Of a stretch of DNA of 64,000 nucleotides, positions 40,047 to 57,124 are shown one piece after another. Numbering within the stretch: position 1 is the first letter of the stretch; every line of letters begins with the position of its first letter. Under the pieces are notes generated by a model. The model was not told where the DNA came from. It saw only the letters and a list, made by a program, of their open reading frames with translations, and did no database searches. Origin of the DNA: Streptomyces lincolnensis (GTDB lineage Bacteria; Actinomycetota; Actinomycetes; Streptomycetales; Streptomycetaceae); NCBI RefSeq assembly GCF_001685355.1, contig NZ_CP016438.1, forward strand, positions 2,046,001 through 2,110,000, given 5' to 3'. The translations under genes were made by a program, and so were the position numbers.

Positions 40047-40119
40047 GCGGACGTAGCTCAGTTGGTAGAGCGCAACCTTGCCAAGGTTGAGGTCGCGAGT
40101 TCGAACCTCGTCGTCCGCT
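40047..40119 (+). tRNA. tRNA-Gly (anticodon GCC)
   Basis: A 73-nt cloverleaf: acceptor GCGGACG/CGUCCGC, anticodon stem CAACC/GGUUG with loop UUGCCAA (anticodon GCC), T loop UUCGAAC. The discriminator is U and no CCA is encoded. It is the first gene of a five-tRNA cluster. Confidence 0.97.
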
Positions 40120-40156
40120 CGAAGGAAGTGGGGGACCCCGGTCCCCATACACTCCT

Positions 40157-40227
40157 GGTGGAGTGGCCGAGAGGCGAGGCAACGGCCTGCAAAGCCGTCT
40201 ACACGGGTTCAAATCCCGTCTCCACCT
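40157..40227 (+). tRNA. tRNA-Cys (anticodon GCA)
   Basis: A 71-nt cloverleaf: acceptor GGUGGAG/CUCCACC, anticodon stem ACGGC/GCCGU with loop CUGCAAA (anticodon GCA), T loop UUCAAAU. The discriminator is U, as usual for tRNA-Cys. Confidence 0.97.
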
Positions 40228-40231
40228 CCAA

Positions 40232-40303
40232 GGACGATTAGCTCAGCGGGAGAGCGCTTCCCTGACACGGAAGAGGTCACTGGTTCAATCCCAGTATCGT
40301 CCA
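40232..40303 (+). tRNA. tRNA-Val (anticodon GAC), copy 1
   Basis: A 72-nt cloverleaf: acceptor GGACGAU/AUCGUCC, anticodon stem CUUCC/GGAAG with loop CUGACAC (anticodon GAC), T loop UUCAAUC. It starts 4 nt after tRNA-Cys. Confidence 0.97.
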
Positions 40304-40339
40304 CTGGATCTTCCGGCTCCTACGGCGAGATCCGAACCC

Positions 40340-40411
40340 GCGCGATTAGCTCAGCGGGAGAGCGCTTCCCTGACACGGAAGAGGTCACTGGTTCAATCCC
40401 AGTATCGCGCA
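40340..40411 (+). tRNA. tRNA-Val (anticodon GAC), copy 2 with altered acceptor stem
   Basis: A 72-nt tRNA identical to copies 1 and 3 in its body but with acceptor GCGCGAU/AUCGCGC. The 5' and 3' strands differ from the other copies in a matched way, so pairing is kept. Confidence 0.97.
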
Positions 40412-40445
40412 CGCAGTGCTCACGACCCTTGAGTCGTGGTCCCGA

Positions 40446-40517
40446 GGACGATTAGCTCAGCGGGAGAGCGCTTCCCTGACACGGAAGAGGTCACTGGTTC
40501 AATCCCAGTATCGTCCA
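40446..40517 (+). tRNA. tRNA-Val (anticodon GAC), copy 3
   Basis: A 72-nt tRNA identical to copy 1, with acceptor GGACGAU/AUCGUCC and anticodon GAC. It is the last gene of the cluster, followed by a hairpin terminator 7 nt downstream. Confidence 0.97.
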
Positions 40518-53729: not shown

Positions 53730-54557
53730 TCAGAAGGACGCGATGACGGAGCCGGCGTACTTGTCCTGGATGAACTTCTTGACCTCGGGGGAGGTGAGGA
53801 GCTTGGCCAGCTTGGTGACGCGCGGGTCCTTCTCCTGGCCCTCCTTGACGGCGAGGAAGTTGCCGTAGGGGTTGTTCTTCGGGGACTCCAGGACGAGGGC
53901 GTCCTCGGCGGGCTTCAGGTCGGCCTCGATGGCGTAGTTGCCGTTGACGACGGCGGCGTCCACGTCGTCCAGGGAGCGCGGGGTCTGGGCCGCCTCCAAC
54001 TCCTTGAACTTGAGCTTCCTGGGGTTCTGGGCGATGTCGGAGGGGGTCGCCTCGTTGCCCACGCCGTCCTTGAGCGTGATGATCCCGTTGGCGTCGAGGA
54101 GCTTGAGGGCACGGGCCTCGTTGACGCTGTCGTTCGGGACGGCGATCGTCGCGCCGCTCTTGAGGGCGTCGGCGCTCTTGACCTTGCGGGAGTAGAGGCC
54201 GAGGGGCTCCAGATGGACCGTGACGACGGGCACGATGTGGGTGCCGTTCTTCTTGTTGAAGTCGTCGAGGTAGGGCTGGTTCTGGAAGTAGTTGGCACCC
54301 ACCGAGCCGTCCTCGGTCGCCGTGTTCGGCGTGACGTAGTCGGTGAACTCCCGGACCTCCAGGTCGAGTCCGGCCTTCTTCGCCAGGTTGTCCTTGACGT
54401 AGGTGAGGATCTCGGCGTGCGGGGTCGGGCTCGCGGCGACGACCAGCGGGCCGCTGGTGTCGGAGGCGGCGTCCGTGCCCGAGCCGCAGGCGGAGAGCCC
54501 GAGAGCCAGGGCTCCGACGGCGAGGACGGCGGTGGTGAGCTTTGCGGTGTTACGCAC
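53730..54557 (-). CDS. metQ: Methionine-binding lipoprotein MetQ
   Basis: A 275-aa NlpA/MetQ-family substrate-binding lipoprotein. The signal peptide ends in the lipobox LGLSAC with the acylated Cys at residue 24. Family segments ANYFQNQPYLDDFN and IAVPNDSVNEARALKLLD are visible. It delivers methionine (L or D) to MetNI. The GTG at 54557 has AAGGAAAGG upstream. It is last in metN-metI-metQ, separated from metI by 66 nt, with a terminator after it. Confidence 0.93.
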   Translation of the reverse strand: MRNTAKLTTAVLAVGALALGLSACGSGTDAASDTSGPLVVAASPTPHAEILTYVKDNLAKKAGLDLEVREFTDYVTPNTATEDGSVGANYFQNQPYLDDFNKKNGTHIVPVVTVHLEPLGLYSRKVKSADALKSGATIAVPNDSVNEARALKLLDANGIITLKDGVGNEATPSDIAQNPRKLKFKELEAAQTPRSLDDVDAAVVNGNYAIEADLKPAEDALVLESPKNNPYGNFLAVKEGQEKDPRVTKLAKLLTSPEVKKFIQDKYAGSVIASF

Positions 54558-54623
54558 GAAAAGTGCCTTTCCTTTTGGGTGCGGCGATCCCGTGAAGGGG
54601 TGCACGGGAGGAACGGGGGTGTC

Positions 54624-55349
54624 TCAGACGGTCTTGGTGTCCGCCGTCGATGCCTTCAGCAGACGGAGTTTCGGCGCCGGGCCCGAGGTGCCGCCGCGGC
54701 GGTACAGGGAGCGGGCCGCGTAGTCGCCGGCGAACTGGATGAGCGAGATGACGACGGCGAGGACCGCCACGGTGATCCACATCAGCTCGGTCTCGAAGCG
54801 CTGGTAGCCGTAGCGGATGGCGATGTCGCCGAGGCCGCCGGCGCCGACCGTGCCGGCCATCGCCGAGTAGCCGATGAGGGCGACGATCGTGGTCGTGGTG
54901 CTGGCGATCAGCGAGGGCAGGGCTTCGGGGACGAGGACCTTGCGGACGATCGTCCAGGTGTTGCCGCCCATCGACTGCACGGCTTCGACGAGGCCGCCGT
55001 CCACTTCGCGGACAGCCGTCTCGACGAGGCGCGCGAAGAAGGGGATGGCGCCGACGGCGAGGGGAACGATGGCGGCCTCGCGGCCGATGGTCGTCCCGGT
55101 GATCGAGCGGGTGAAGCCCATCAGCGCGACCATGAGGATGATGAACGGCATCGAGCGGGCGACGTTCACGACCTGCCCGATGACCTTGTTGGCGACGACG
55201 TTCCGGAGCAGTCCGCCGCGGTCGGTGAGGACCAGCAGGACGCCGAGCGGAAGCCCGCCGACGACGGCGATGAGCGTGGACCAGCCGACCATGTAGAGGG
55301 TGTCCCAACAGGCCTGCTCCAGCAGGGGCTGCATTTCGGACCAGGTCAC
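54624..55349 (-). CDS. metI: Methionine ABC transporter permease MetI
   Basis: A 241-aa permease with five predicted helices. The ATPase-contact loop is in AVQSMGGNTWTIVRKVLVPE near residue 145. The C-terminal hydrophilic end is slightly longer than in E. coli MetI. The GTG at 55349 overlaps the metN stop (GTGA), showing translational coupling. Confidence 0.94.
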   Translation of the reverse strand: MTWSEMQPLLEQACWDTLYMVGWSTLIAVVGGLPLGVLLVLTDRGGLLRNVVANKVIGQVVNVARSMPFIILMVALMGFTRSITGTTIGREAAIVPLAVGAIPFFARLVETAVREVDGGLVEAVQSMGGNTWTIVRKVLVPEALPSLIASTTTTIVALIGYSAMAGTVGAGGLGDIAIRYGYQRFETELMWITVAVLAVVISLIQFAGDYAARSLYRRGGTSGPAPKLRLLKASTADTKTV

Positions 55350-56380
55350 TTGGCACCTTCCTTCACCAGGACGGGCTCCTGGCCCACGACGTCGATCTGG
55401 AGGCCCTGTTCGCGCAGGAAACCGATCGGCACCACGTTCTCCTCGTAGCGGCCGGGCAGTTCGATGCGCATCCGGCCGACCTGGAGCCCGCCGACGGTGT
55501 CGATGGCGGCACCGAGGATCGATATGTCGATGTTGTAGGTGCGCGAGAGCTGGGAGATGACCGGCTGGGTCGCGGCCTCGCCCTGGAAGGTGACGTCGAC
55601 GACGGTGCGGTCGTCGGCGGAGACCTCGCCGCTCACCGGGAAGAGCGCGGACGCCAGCTGGGAGCCCGGGGTCGCGAGCAGTTCGCTGACCGTCCCGGAC
55701 TCGACGATCCGGCCCCGTTCCATGAGCGCCGCGGAATCGCAGACCGACTTCACGACGTCCATCTCGTGGGTGATGAGCAGGACGGTCAGGTCCAGCTGCC
55801 GGTTCAGGTCGCGCAGCAGCCTGAGGATGGAGCGGGTGGTCTCCGGGTCGAGGGCGCTGGTGGCCTCGTCGGACAGCAGCACCTTCGGGTCGCCGGCCAG
55901 GGCGCGGGCGATGCCGACGCGCTGCTTCTGGCCGCCGGACAGCTGGGCGGGATAGGCACCCGCCTTGTCGGCGAGGCCGACGAGGTCGAGCAGGTCGAGC
56001 GCCTTGCGGGAGCGTTCCTTGCCCGACTTGCCGAGGATTTCGAGGGGCAGCTCGACGTTGTCCTGGACCGTCCGGGTGGACAGCAGGTTGAAGTGCTGGA
56101 AGACCATGCCGATACGGCTGCGCGCGCGGCGGAGTTCGCGGCCCGCGCGCGGACCGCGGCCCGCGAGGGCGGTGAGCTCCTGGCCGGCGACGGTCACGGT
56201 GCCGGCGGTGGGGTGCTCCAGCAGGTTGACGCAGCGGATGAGCGAGGACTTGCCGGCGCCGGACTGGCCGATGACGCCGTACACCTCGCCTTCGCGGACG
56301 TGCAGGTCGACGCCGTCCAGGGCGGTGACCTCGCGGCCGCGGGAGCGGTAGACCTTGGTCAGGCCCGATGTGGTGATCAC
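55346..56380 (-). CDS. metN: Methionine ABC transporter ATP-binding protein MetN
   Basis: A 344-aa ATPase of the MetNIQ importer. Walker A GQSGAGKSS (residues 38-46), signature LSGGQKQR (147-154) and Walker B VLLSDEATSALD are followed by a C-terminal NIL regulatory domain (from about 265) that senses internal methionine. I chose the GTG at 56380 (MITTSGLTKVYRSRG) since GGAAAA lies about 6 nt upstream; a GTG at 56395 is possible but has no ribosome site. The 157-nt leader between the stop of a Cys/Met-rich small ORF and this start suggests attenuation control. Confidence 0.94.
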   Translation of the reverse strand: MITTSGLTKVYRSRGREVTALDGVDLHVREGEVYGVIGQSGAGKSSLIRCVNLLEHPTAGTVTVAGQELTALAGRGPRAGRELRRARSRIGMVFQHFNLLSTRTVQDNVELPLEILGKSGKERSRKALDLLDLVGLADKAGAYPAQLSGGQKQRVGIARALAGDPKVLLSDEATSALDPETTRSILRLLRDLNRQLDLTVLLITHEMDVVKSVCDSAALMERGRIVESGTVSELLATPGSQLASALFPVSGEVSADDRTVVDVTFQGEAATQPVISQLSRTYNIDISILGAAIDTVGGLQVGRMRIELPGRYEENVVPIGFLREQGLQIDVVGQEPVLVKEGAK

Positions 56381-56537
56381 TGGGTTTTCCGTCACTGTCG
56401 AGTACGAGGGCGTGGGTGTGCCCTGGTACGGGAGAGAAGATGTGCGTGCGGCAGCGTGGTCACGTACGGGATGCGCACGGACATGCCGCGACTGCTCGCT
56501 TCGGGGCGCGAGGCTCAAGGGGTGGTGCGGGGGCCCT
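56381..56537 (-). promoter_or_regulatory. Leader segment between the small ORF and metN, with potential attenuator hairpins
   Basis: A CTCGC...GCGAG hairpin with an 8-nt loop (56495-56512) and longer imperfect pairings around GCGGCA/TGCCGC (near 56451-56490) can form. This could couple leader-peptide translation to metN expression. Which structures compete cannot be settled by eye. Confidence 0.4.
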
Positions 56538-56624
56538 CTAGCAGGCGCACATTCGACACATACAACGAGCACCGGGCGTCATGGTCGCCTCGGTCGCAGT
56601 GGTGCGGCAGCTCGTGGTGGTCAT
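56538..56624 (-). CDS. 28-aa Cys/Met-rich putative leader peptide upstream of metNIQ
   Basis: A 28-codon ORF from the ATG at 56624, ending in the residues ARCMCRMCAC immediately before TAG: five cysteines and two methionines in the last 9 codons or so. Nothing is conserved-domain-like. Its position ahead of a methionine transporter and the sulfur-amino-acid-rich end fit a leader peptide whose translation stalls when charged Cys- or Met-tRNA is short. A promoter-like TTGGCC-16-TTTACT ends 7 nt before the ATG, so the message may be leaderless, as is common in Actinobacteria. It was found by reading the intergenic region; it is shorter than usual gene-finder limits. Confidence 0.7.
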   Translation of the reverse strand: MTTTSCRTTATEATMTPGARCMCRMCAC

Positions 56625-56630
56625 GCGATC

Positions 56631-56658
56631 AGTAAAGCAGACGTATGGGAGCGGCCAA
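56631..56658 (-). promoter_or_regulatory. Possible promoter giving a leaderless leader-peptide mRNA
   Basis: On the minus strand TTGGCC (56653-56658) and TTTACT (56631-56636) are 16 nt apart. The predicted transcription start falls on the A of the leader ATG at 56624. The -10 box is weak. Confidence 0.35.
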
Positions 56659-56764
56659 GAACCGCTGTCCGAATGCCGGACAGCGGTGGACAGGGTGCGG
56701 GGCGGGGGCAGGGTGCACCGGGGTCGGCCGCACCAGGCCTTTTGGCCCGTAATAGGGTCGCTCC

Positions 56765-57124
56765 ATGCTTGATGCCCTGACGCTCGCGACCGGCGTCGCC
56801 GCTCTGCTGCTCGCGGCGTGGTGCGGCTGGGCCGCGTATCGCGACCAGCCGACCAAGGACTGGCACTTCATCGGGATGGCCGTGGTGTCGGTGCTGGCCC
56901 TCGTCCAGCTGGTGGTCGGGACCGTGCAGCTGGCTCGGGGCGAGAAGCCGGATCAGGGCACGACGATCTTTGTGGCGTATCTGCTGGGCGCGTTCGCGTG
57001 TGTGCCGGCGGCGGGGTTCATGTCGCTGGCCGAGCGGACGCGGTGGGGGTCGGTGACGGTCGCCGCCGGCGGTGTGGTGCTGGCTGTGCTGGAGGTGCGG
57101 CTCTATGACATCTGGGGAGGCTGA
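56765..57124 (+). CDS. Small four-helix membrane protein
   Basis: A 119-aa protein with four predicted helices (for example LTLATGVAALLLAAWCGWAA, FIGMAVVSVLALVQLVVGTV, IFVAYLLGAFACVPAAGFMS, VTVAAGGVVLAVLEVRLYD). No family function is known. The ATG at 56765 is the natural start. It is followed after one base by another membrane protein gene; the two probably act together. Confidence 0.75.
   Translation: MLDALTLATGVAALLLAAWCGWAAYRDQPTKDWHFIGMAVVSVLALVQLVVGTVQLARGEKPDQGTTIFVAYLLGAFACVPAAGFMSLAERTRWGSVTVAAGGVVLAVLEVRLYDIWGG

Follow-up and report, generated by a model that had tools for sequence, protein, structure and literature searches.

Does the short open reading frame (ORF) that precedes the methionine importer operon metNIQ of Streptomyces lincolnensis serve as a leader through which the supply of sulfur amino acids controls the operon? 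The window studied here, a stretch of 64,000 nt from contig NZ_CP016438.1, carries on its minus strand an ATG, 27 further codons, and a TAG, together encoding the peptide MTTTSCRTTATEATMTPGARCMCRMCAC. A sequence-only reading of the same DNA had described this ORF as a 28-codon frame ending in ARCMCRMCAC, had judged such an end very unlikely by chance, and had placed it ahead of a methionine importer. We found the frame exactly as described, and the three downstream genes were confirmed by Pfam as metN, metI, and metQ, with metN starting at a GTG (56380, minus strand) 157 nt beyond the stop of the ORF (Table 1).

A leader ORF ahead of metNIQ and its taxonomic range

Among 529 ORFs of 12 to 60 amino acids in the window, only this one has at least five Cys or Met residues in its last eight positions, and none of the 111,332 ORFs in 120 windows randomised by order-1 and order-2 Markov models had an equally dense tail. 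The Cys/Met tail is therefore not a product of chance. Calling the ORF uncharted was, on the other hand, mistaken, because the S. lividans TK24 ortholog has been in print since 2021 as metL (SLIV_29928; Droste et al. 2021, PMC8079986), a table entry plus a brief paragraph, described in the accessible text of that paper as leaderless, methionine dependent, containing several methionines and threonines, and of unclear termination. Accordingly, we use the name metL. The window peptide aligns with it codon by codon, and two loci of our collection (L032 and L034) encode the exact S. lividans peptide. Shared by both are the place before metNIQ, the peptide family, and probably the leaderless start, which TSS data show for S. 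lividans. Where the S. lividans authors point to methionines and threonines, our analysis adds a Cys reading of the tail, its CGA-ATG core, conserved hairpins, an upstream dyad, and the taxonomic range, all of which go beyond the accessible published account. Among open-licence PMC texts, metNIQ, Streptomyces, and leader peptide came together only in Droste et al. 2021, and the main texts of four Streptomyces transcriptome papers (PMC6742748, PMC4895711, PMC8780764, and PMC8914203) mention neither metN nor a leader peptide.

Table 1. Features of the metL-metNIQ region; positions refer to the window unless a locus is named
Feature	Position	Strand	Basis
Operator-like dyad CCGCTGTCC-N7-GGACAGCGG upstream of promoter	56662..56686		centre 49.5 nt before ATG
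Extended -10 promoter element TCTGCTTTACT	56631..56641	-	TCTGnTTTACT exact in 138/157 loci; single such place in own genome
Leader ORF metL (probably leaderless), 28 codons + TAG	56538..56624	-	sequence, 138 same-genus loci, published S. lividans ortholog with leaderless TSS
Hairpin P3 inside ORF (codons 11-18)	56571..56594	-	pairing in 87 sequences, fold z
Tail ARCMCRMCAC (codons 19-28), CGA-ATG core at codons 24-25	56541..56570	-	CGAATG, Cys/Met tallies, changes per codon
Conserved AGGGCCC right after stop	56531..56537	-	TGAGGGNCC or TAGAGGGNCC in 149/157 loci
Hairpin P5, CTCGC-GCCCCGAA-GCGAG, conserved loop	56495..56512	-	exact in 122/157 loci
Hairpin P6 directly before metN ribosome-binding region	56402..56429	-	pairing in 64 sequences, fold z
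metN, methionine importer ATPase	55346..56380	-	Pfam ABC_tran + NIL
metI, permease	54624..55349	-	Pfam BPD_transp_1
metQ, substrate-binding lipoprotein	53730..54605	-	Pfam Lipoprotein_9
27-codon leader ORF MSGTGIALVSRRHVDLGRMSSAICPVR	L210 1377-1460	-	NCBIfam NF042934 'putative leader peptide', 33 bits, cut-off 27; precedes nitrite/sulfite reductase gene, own genome

A 320-nt region around the ORF found a match in 142 of 150 same-genus genomes at E 1e-3. Four of these (G113, G120, G121, and G135), which have no listed place, are not among the loci, nor is the second place of G002. The ORF lay in the same place in all 138 same-genus loci read, with metN downstream in 137 of them at 146 to 255 nt; the sequence of the remaining locus (L134) ends before metN, and this locus was excluded from metN-based counts. 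We built an alignment (A1) and a covariance model (R1, comprising the ORF and the next hairpin) from 87 of the 138 loci, all under 90% identity. In a draw across the order, R1 matched 101 of 119 genomes, namely, 101 of 104 from the same genus and 0 of 15 from other families, and a draw across the class gave 16 matches in 197 genomes, all from the same genus (1 of 90 genera). In a draw across the family, R1 matched 19 of 36 genomes from other genera at E up to 1e-4. Diverged copies may escape such searches, which left 8 of 150 (region search) and 3 of 104 (R1) same-genus genomes without a match.

All 19 matches from other genera were read. Each showed an ORF before metN and after TCTGnTTTACT that begins with MTTT or similar and closes with R-M-(C or R) and one or two further residues; the central part of the peptide was unrelated in the genera that had diverged more. 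Of 29 further loci (L174 to L202), 19 were taken into the combined set. Left out were L175 to L177, L180, L186, L187, L189, and L191, whose type was already represented and which all carry the ORF, as well as L181 and L202, whose fetched stretches lack metN. L181 (G400:C1:4424518-4424637) is a weak hit (E 0.009) that R1 gave in addition to the first in one genome of the same genus. Conservation among relatives had been named as the check on this ORF, and no loss was found, since the frame is kept in all 138 same-genus loci and in all 27 additional loci whose sequence includes metN. By these matches, metL is present in most of the searched genomes of the genus and extends to further genera within the family. 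In short, metL is real, deeply conserved, and already described in one strain.

There is one copy of metL in its own genome, where R1 found other matches only at E 2.7 or worse. The window peptide and two relatives matched no NCBIfam family at E up to 1, metL scored below the curated cut-offs of the leader peptide models NF042934 and NF042936, and a Pfam search gave no match for the leader peptide. Rfam covariance models gave no match in 56300-56780 at E up to 10. Elsewhere in the window, Rfam placed a cluster of five tRNA genes (40047-40517, plus strand).

A dense Cys/Met end with such broad conservation would also suit a small protein acting in trans. We consider this very improbable, as several peptide positions vary freely, the middle is not kept in the more diverged genera, the ORF precedes metN wherever the fetched stretch contained metN, and neither Pfam nor NCBIfam recognizes the product.

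Selection on the reading frame and on the tail codons

Since an ORF read from ATG to stop is always a multiple of three, the placement of the stop is the real test of whether the frame is selected. The stop was found at the landmark GGG(C/T)CC in 149 of 157 loci, though the ORF varies from 26 to 37 codons and changed in length about 16 times on the metN tree (136 leaves). Distances from the stop to P5 were mixed with respect to the reading frame (remainders modulo 3 in 86, 29, and 26 of 141 loci), and so were those from the stop to metN (58, 52, and 46 of 156). Moreover, two lineages, carrying TAGAGGGCCC and TGAGGGCCC, differ by one base exactly at the stop, and both keep a stop there (TAGA or TGA before GGGCCC). 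The in-frame tail was also kept in genera with an altered peptide middle. Because the stop stays at its landmark, the one-base shift retains a stop, and the tail survives a changed middle, the comparison of loci indicates that the metL frame is under selection. In L135 (568-731), L187 (ORF from base 433), and L196, the two halves of the tail are separated by a long in-frame insert that brings the ORF to 37 or 38 codons, yet R-M-C is retained close to the stop.

Changes per site at codon positions 1, 2, and 3 were 4.2, 5.0, and 2.9 in metL versus 2.0, 1.7, and 10.5 in metN (109 leaves). The first and second positions were free in codons 6, 8, 9, 14, and 15. In the underlying tally, two of the 109 rows (L091 and L100, with one codon inserted and one removed) are out of register over codons 14 to 26 and add a few false changes. 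Since third positions change less than first and second ones, much or most of the ORF is under constraint as nucleic acid and not as a peptide. Near its start, where even the nucleotides are fixed, stand most of the Thr codons to which the S. lividans authors draw attention.

We then considered the tail codon by codon. The last 12 residues contained Cys in 157 of 157 loci (one in 7, two in 50, and three or more in 100) and Met in 156. The expectation that the Cys and Met codons would be conserved thus held for the tail as a whole and did not hold for every single codon. Within the 109 ORFs of 28 codons, C21 was kept in 99 and C26 in 76, the metN tree showing about 9 and 11 changes at their first positions, respectively, mostly to Arg, and M22 was variable (92/109). 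The steadiest codons were C23 (104/109), R24 (106/109), and M25 (106/109). R24 was always or nearly always CGA, and CGAATG was in frame in 155 of 157 loci (56551-56556 in the window, codons 24 and 25); among the 144 Arg codons of seven ORFs close by, only 3 are CGA. Because C21 and C26 repeatedly became Arg, these comparisons describe a Met/Cys tail built around a fixed CGA-ATG core, and no strict Cys run or counter. The greater steadiness of C23, R24, and M25 suggests that Met or codon context may be as important as Cys. The near-invariant CGA is not accounted for by Met/Cys sensing or by the pairing that we tested.

The fixed CGAATG in spite of the rarity of CGA, together with the exchange of Cys for Arg, would fit a slow-decoding or arrest motif at the rare CGA followed by ATG-TGY, with a pause that is independent of Met and Cys or that depends on Arg or on global translation. 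This is improbable in our judgment, given that Cys and Met persist in the last 12 residues of essentially every locus and that the ORF is located ahead of a methionine importer.

Structure of the leader RNA

Three hairpins were identified in the leader. P3 lies within the ORF; its 7-bp helix was paired in 99.8% of the cells of the 87-sequence alignment, two pairs showed changes on both sides, and nt 25 to 60, which include P3, had a mean fold z of -1.97. In several other genera, a hairpin of differing sequence seemingly stands in its place, as judged by eye. The core of P5, CGCGCCCCGAAGCG, was present in 141 of 157 loci and once in its own genome. Two of its five pairs had changes on both sides (87 sequences), and the segment folded only slightly better than shuffled sequences (mean z, -0.83). 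The structure from the ORF to P5 reached a covariation score of 0.035 in the 87 sequences compared to at most 0.021 in slid controls, with 6 double-change pairs versus up to 5. On paper, the post-stop element could form a GGGC/GCCC pseudoknot with the loop of P5. A large outer helix, P1 (codons 1 to 5 with 18 to 24), proposed by RNAalifold, was discarded, as several of its pairs were broken without compensation in up to 11 of 87 rows.

The outer helix of P6 was paired to 99.6% in 64 sequences, one pair being changed on both sides in 6 rows, and the inner helix was paired to merely 75.6%. As a whole, P6 was 86.3% paired versus 24.0 to 65.5% when slid by 1 to 3 columns, and its mean fold z was -2.14 over 156 loci. 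Its covariation score of 0.120 was matched by slides of -3 (0.114) and -2 (0.117) columns, and P6 therefore rests on pairing and fold energy. The P6 alignment comprises 64 of 80 non-redundant loci and speaks for closer relatives, the 16 more diverged ones (L135, L136, L174, L182, L183, L185, L188, L190, and L194 to L201) having been left out. According to its accessible text, an earlier study of Actinobacteria saw no RNA structure conserved ahead of methionine operons (Seliverstov et al. 2005, PMC1262725).

The nucleotide-level conservation within the ORF, third positions included, the codons left free at their first and second positions, and the presence of P3 and of P5 with its conserved loop raise the alternative of a chiefly structured regulatory RNA, bound by a ligand or a protein, in which the ORF is secondary or merely admits or excludes ribosomes. 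Such an RNA would not call for a stop held at its landmark through length changes and through a one-base shift, nor for a tail that outlasts a changed middle in other genera, and Rfam gave no match to this leader at E up to 10; we regard this alternative as unlikely.

No intrinsic terminator was found in 56300-56760, and the accessible text on S. lividans likewise states that none was found for metL. The alignments examined yielded no covarying alternative (antiterminator) helix. A long-range duplex between the tail (UGUCGA..GUGC) and GCACUCGACA before metN was rejected as a covarying helix: changes on one side went unmatched on the other, CTCGAC was missing altogether in 24 of 156 loci, and the duplex energy (-26.8) was close to that of shuffled sequences (-24.2; sd, 4.9). 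When the free leader was folded in silico, the tail and the last 45 nt before metN formed 6.1 bp on average versus 3.0 and 2.5 with either side shuffled, an average taken over 80 of 156 loci drawn at random, which are related sequences. Because folding in context gives this about twofold excess, we retained the duplex as a candidate. A modelled ribosome on the tail or the stop abolished the tail pairing, as the construction of the model dictates. Simple unmasking of the metN ribosome-binding site (RBS) gained no support from modelling, in which its exposure was flat (0.41 to 0.43 in every ribosome state).

Promoter, upstream dyad, and a probable attenuator

The sequence-only reading had proposed a leaderless mRNA from a weak promoter. 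The element TCTGCTTTACT stands 6 nt before the metL ATG. In the 138 loci with an exact TCTGnTTTACT, the ATG follows 6 or 7 nt past TTTACT, and in the 10.3-Mb genome of the organism itself, TCTGNTTTACT followed by ATG at 6 to 9 nt occurs once. This spacing is close to the 6.3 nt that, on average, separate the -10 hexamer from the TSS according to the accessible text of Droste et al. 2021 on S. lividans (PMC8079986), where TSS data also place the start of the metL ortholog at a leaderless position. A sigma-70 consensus scan of 56300-56760 returned no promoter. The probable leaderless start and the putative metL promoter rest on conservation here and on the TSS published for the S. lividans ortholog.

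Upstream of the promoter, GTCC-N7-GGAC was present in 145 of 156 loci, its centre lying 48.5 to 51.5 nt before the ATG in 127 loci, 58.5 to 60.5 nt in 17, and 70.5 nt in 1. These steps are about one helical turn, as for an activator. The pattern TGTCCGNNATNCGGACA has three exact sites and four with one mismatch in the genome; the reversed control pattern has three sites with up to one mismatch. Besides metL, one exact site lies within a TetR-family gene and is perhaps due to chance, since it is coding. The other (L210 1501-1517) precedes by about 49 nt the ATG of a 27-codon leader ORF of a nitrite/sulfite reductase gene. This ORF belongs to the NF042934 family (cis_reg_atten), which resembles metL in being a short leader ORF, here at about the same distance from the same dyad, and differs from it in the peptide, metL itself having no match to the model. 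For NdgR, an IclR-type regulator of S. coelicolor, the accessible text of PMC4340878 reports a ChIP-seq motif consisting of a 15-bp imperfect palindrome, with GTCC-N7-GGAC in several peaks, and binding to sulfur-assimilation operons; metN was not seen there among its targets. The metL dyad resembles this motif, the inner bases differing in part. That NdgR or a relative acts at the metL dyad is our guess from this likeness.

Related leaders have been reported. In mycobacteria, leaderless poly-Cys uORFs before sulfur genes are described as cysteine-responsive attenuators (Canestrari et al. 2020, as cited in the accessible parts of PMC13236596, PMC9094748, and PMC9031893). They share with metL the short length, Cys codons ahead of sulfur genes, and probably the leaderless start; however, their Cys codons are contiguous and precede cysteine genes, whereas in metL Met and Cys are mixed with Arg ahead of a methionine importer. 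The accessible text of Seliverstov et al. 2005 (PMC1262725) lists candidate Cys leader peptides before cys operons without obvious terminators, which, like metL, have Cys codons near the stop and no clear terminator.

The order of promoter, ORF, sulfur-codon tail, hairpins, and methionine importer fits a ribosome-mediated attenuator, and we think it probable, with real room for doubt, that metL senses the Met/Cys supply for metNIQ in this way; stalling, signal, and output are all inferred. Transcription would begin at or beside the ATG from the extended -10 promoter, and the ribosome would translate codons 1 to 28, as the selection on the frame suggests. When charged Met-tRNA or Cys-tRNA runs short, the ribosome would pause in the M-C-R-M-C tail. 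The pause would block pairing between the tail and the segment ahead of the metN RBS and would alter the choice of leader hairpins or the loading of Rho, so that metNIQ expression rises. The output may pass through Rho, P6, or translation, at the level of either transcription or translation.

The sensor end of this attenuator is well supported by a selected frame with Met and Cys codons near its end, even if individual Cys codons are not constant. Against the attenuator stand the losses of C21 and C26 to Arg, the variation of M22, the third-position constraint, the non-covarying duplex, the flat RBS exposure, the P6 covariation score matched by two slid controls, the lack of a terminator, and the unexplained CGA. 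Going further, one may tentatively picture a composite sulfur-status switch, which we hold to be rather doubtful: one sulfur regulator at the fixed-phase dyad would drive the leaderless leader ORFs of both metNIQ and the sulfite reductase operon, the metNIQ leader would read Met and Cys through its M-C-R-M-C tail, with the near-invariant rare CGA setting the pause, and the tail would compete for the metN RBS region, so that a paused ribosome frees metN without a terminator.

If the attenuator reading is true, metL would be a case of attenuation in a GC-rich genome that responds to two sulfur amino acids and works without an intrinsic terminator; Table 1 gives the elements through which this reading can be tested directly. 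Overall, the comparative data single out the codons and RNA elements retained during evolution of the metL leader and suggest how Streptomyces may couple methionine import to the supply of methionine and cysteine.
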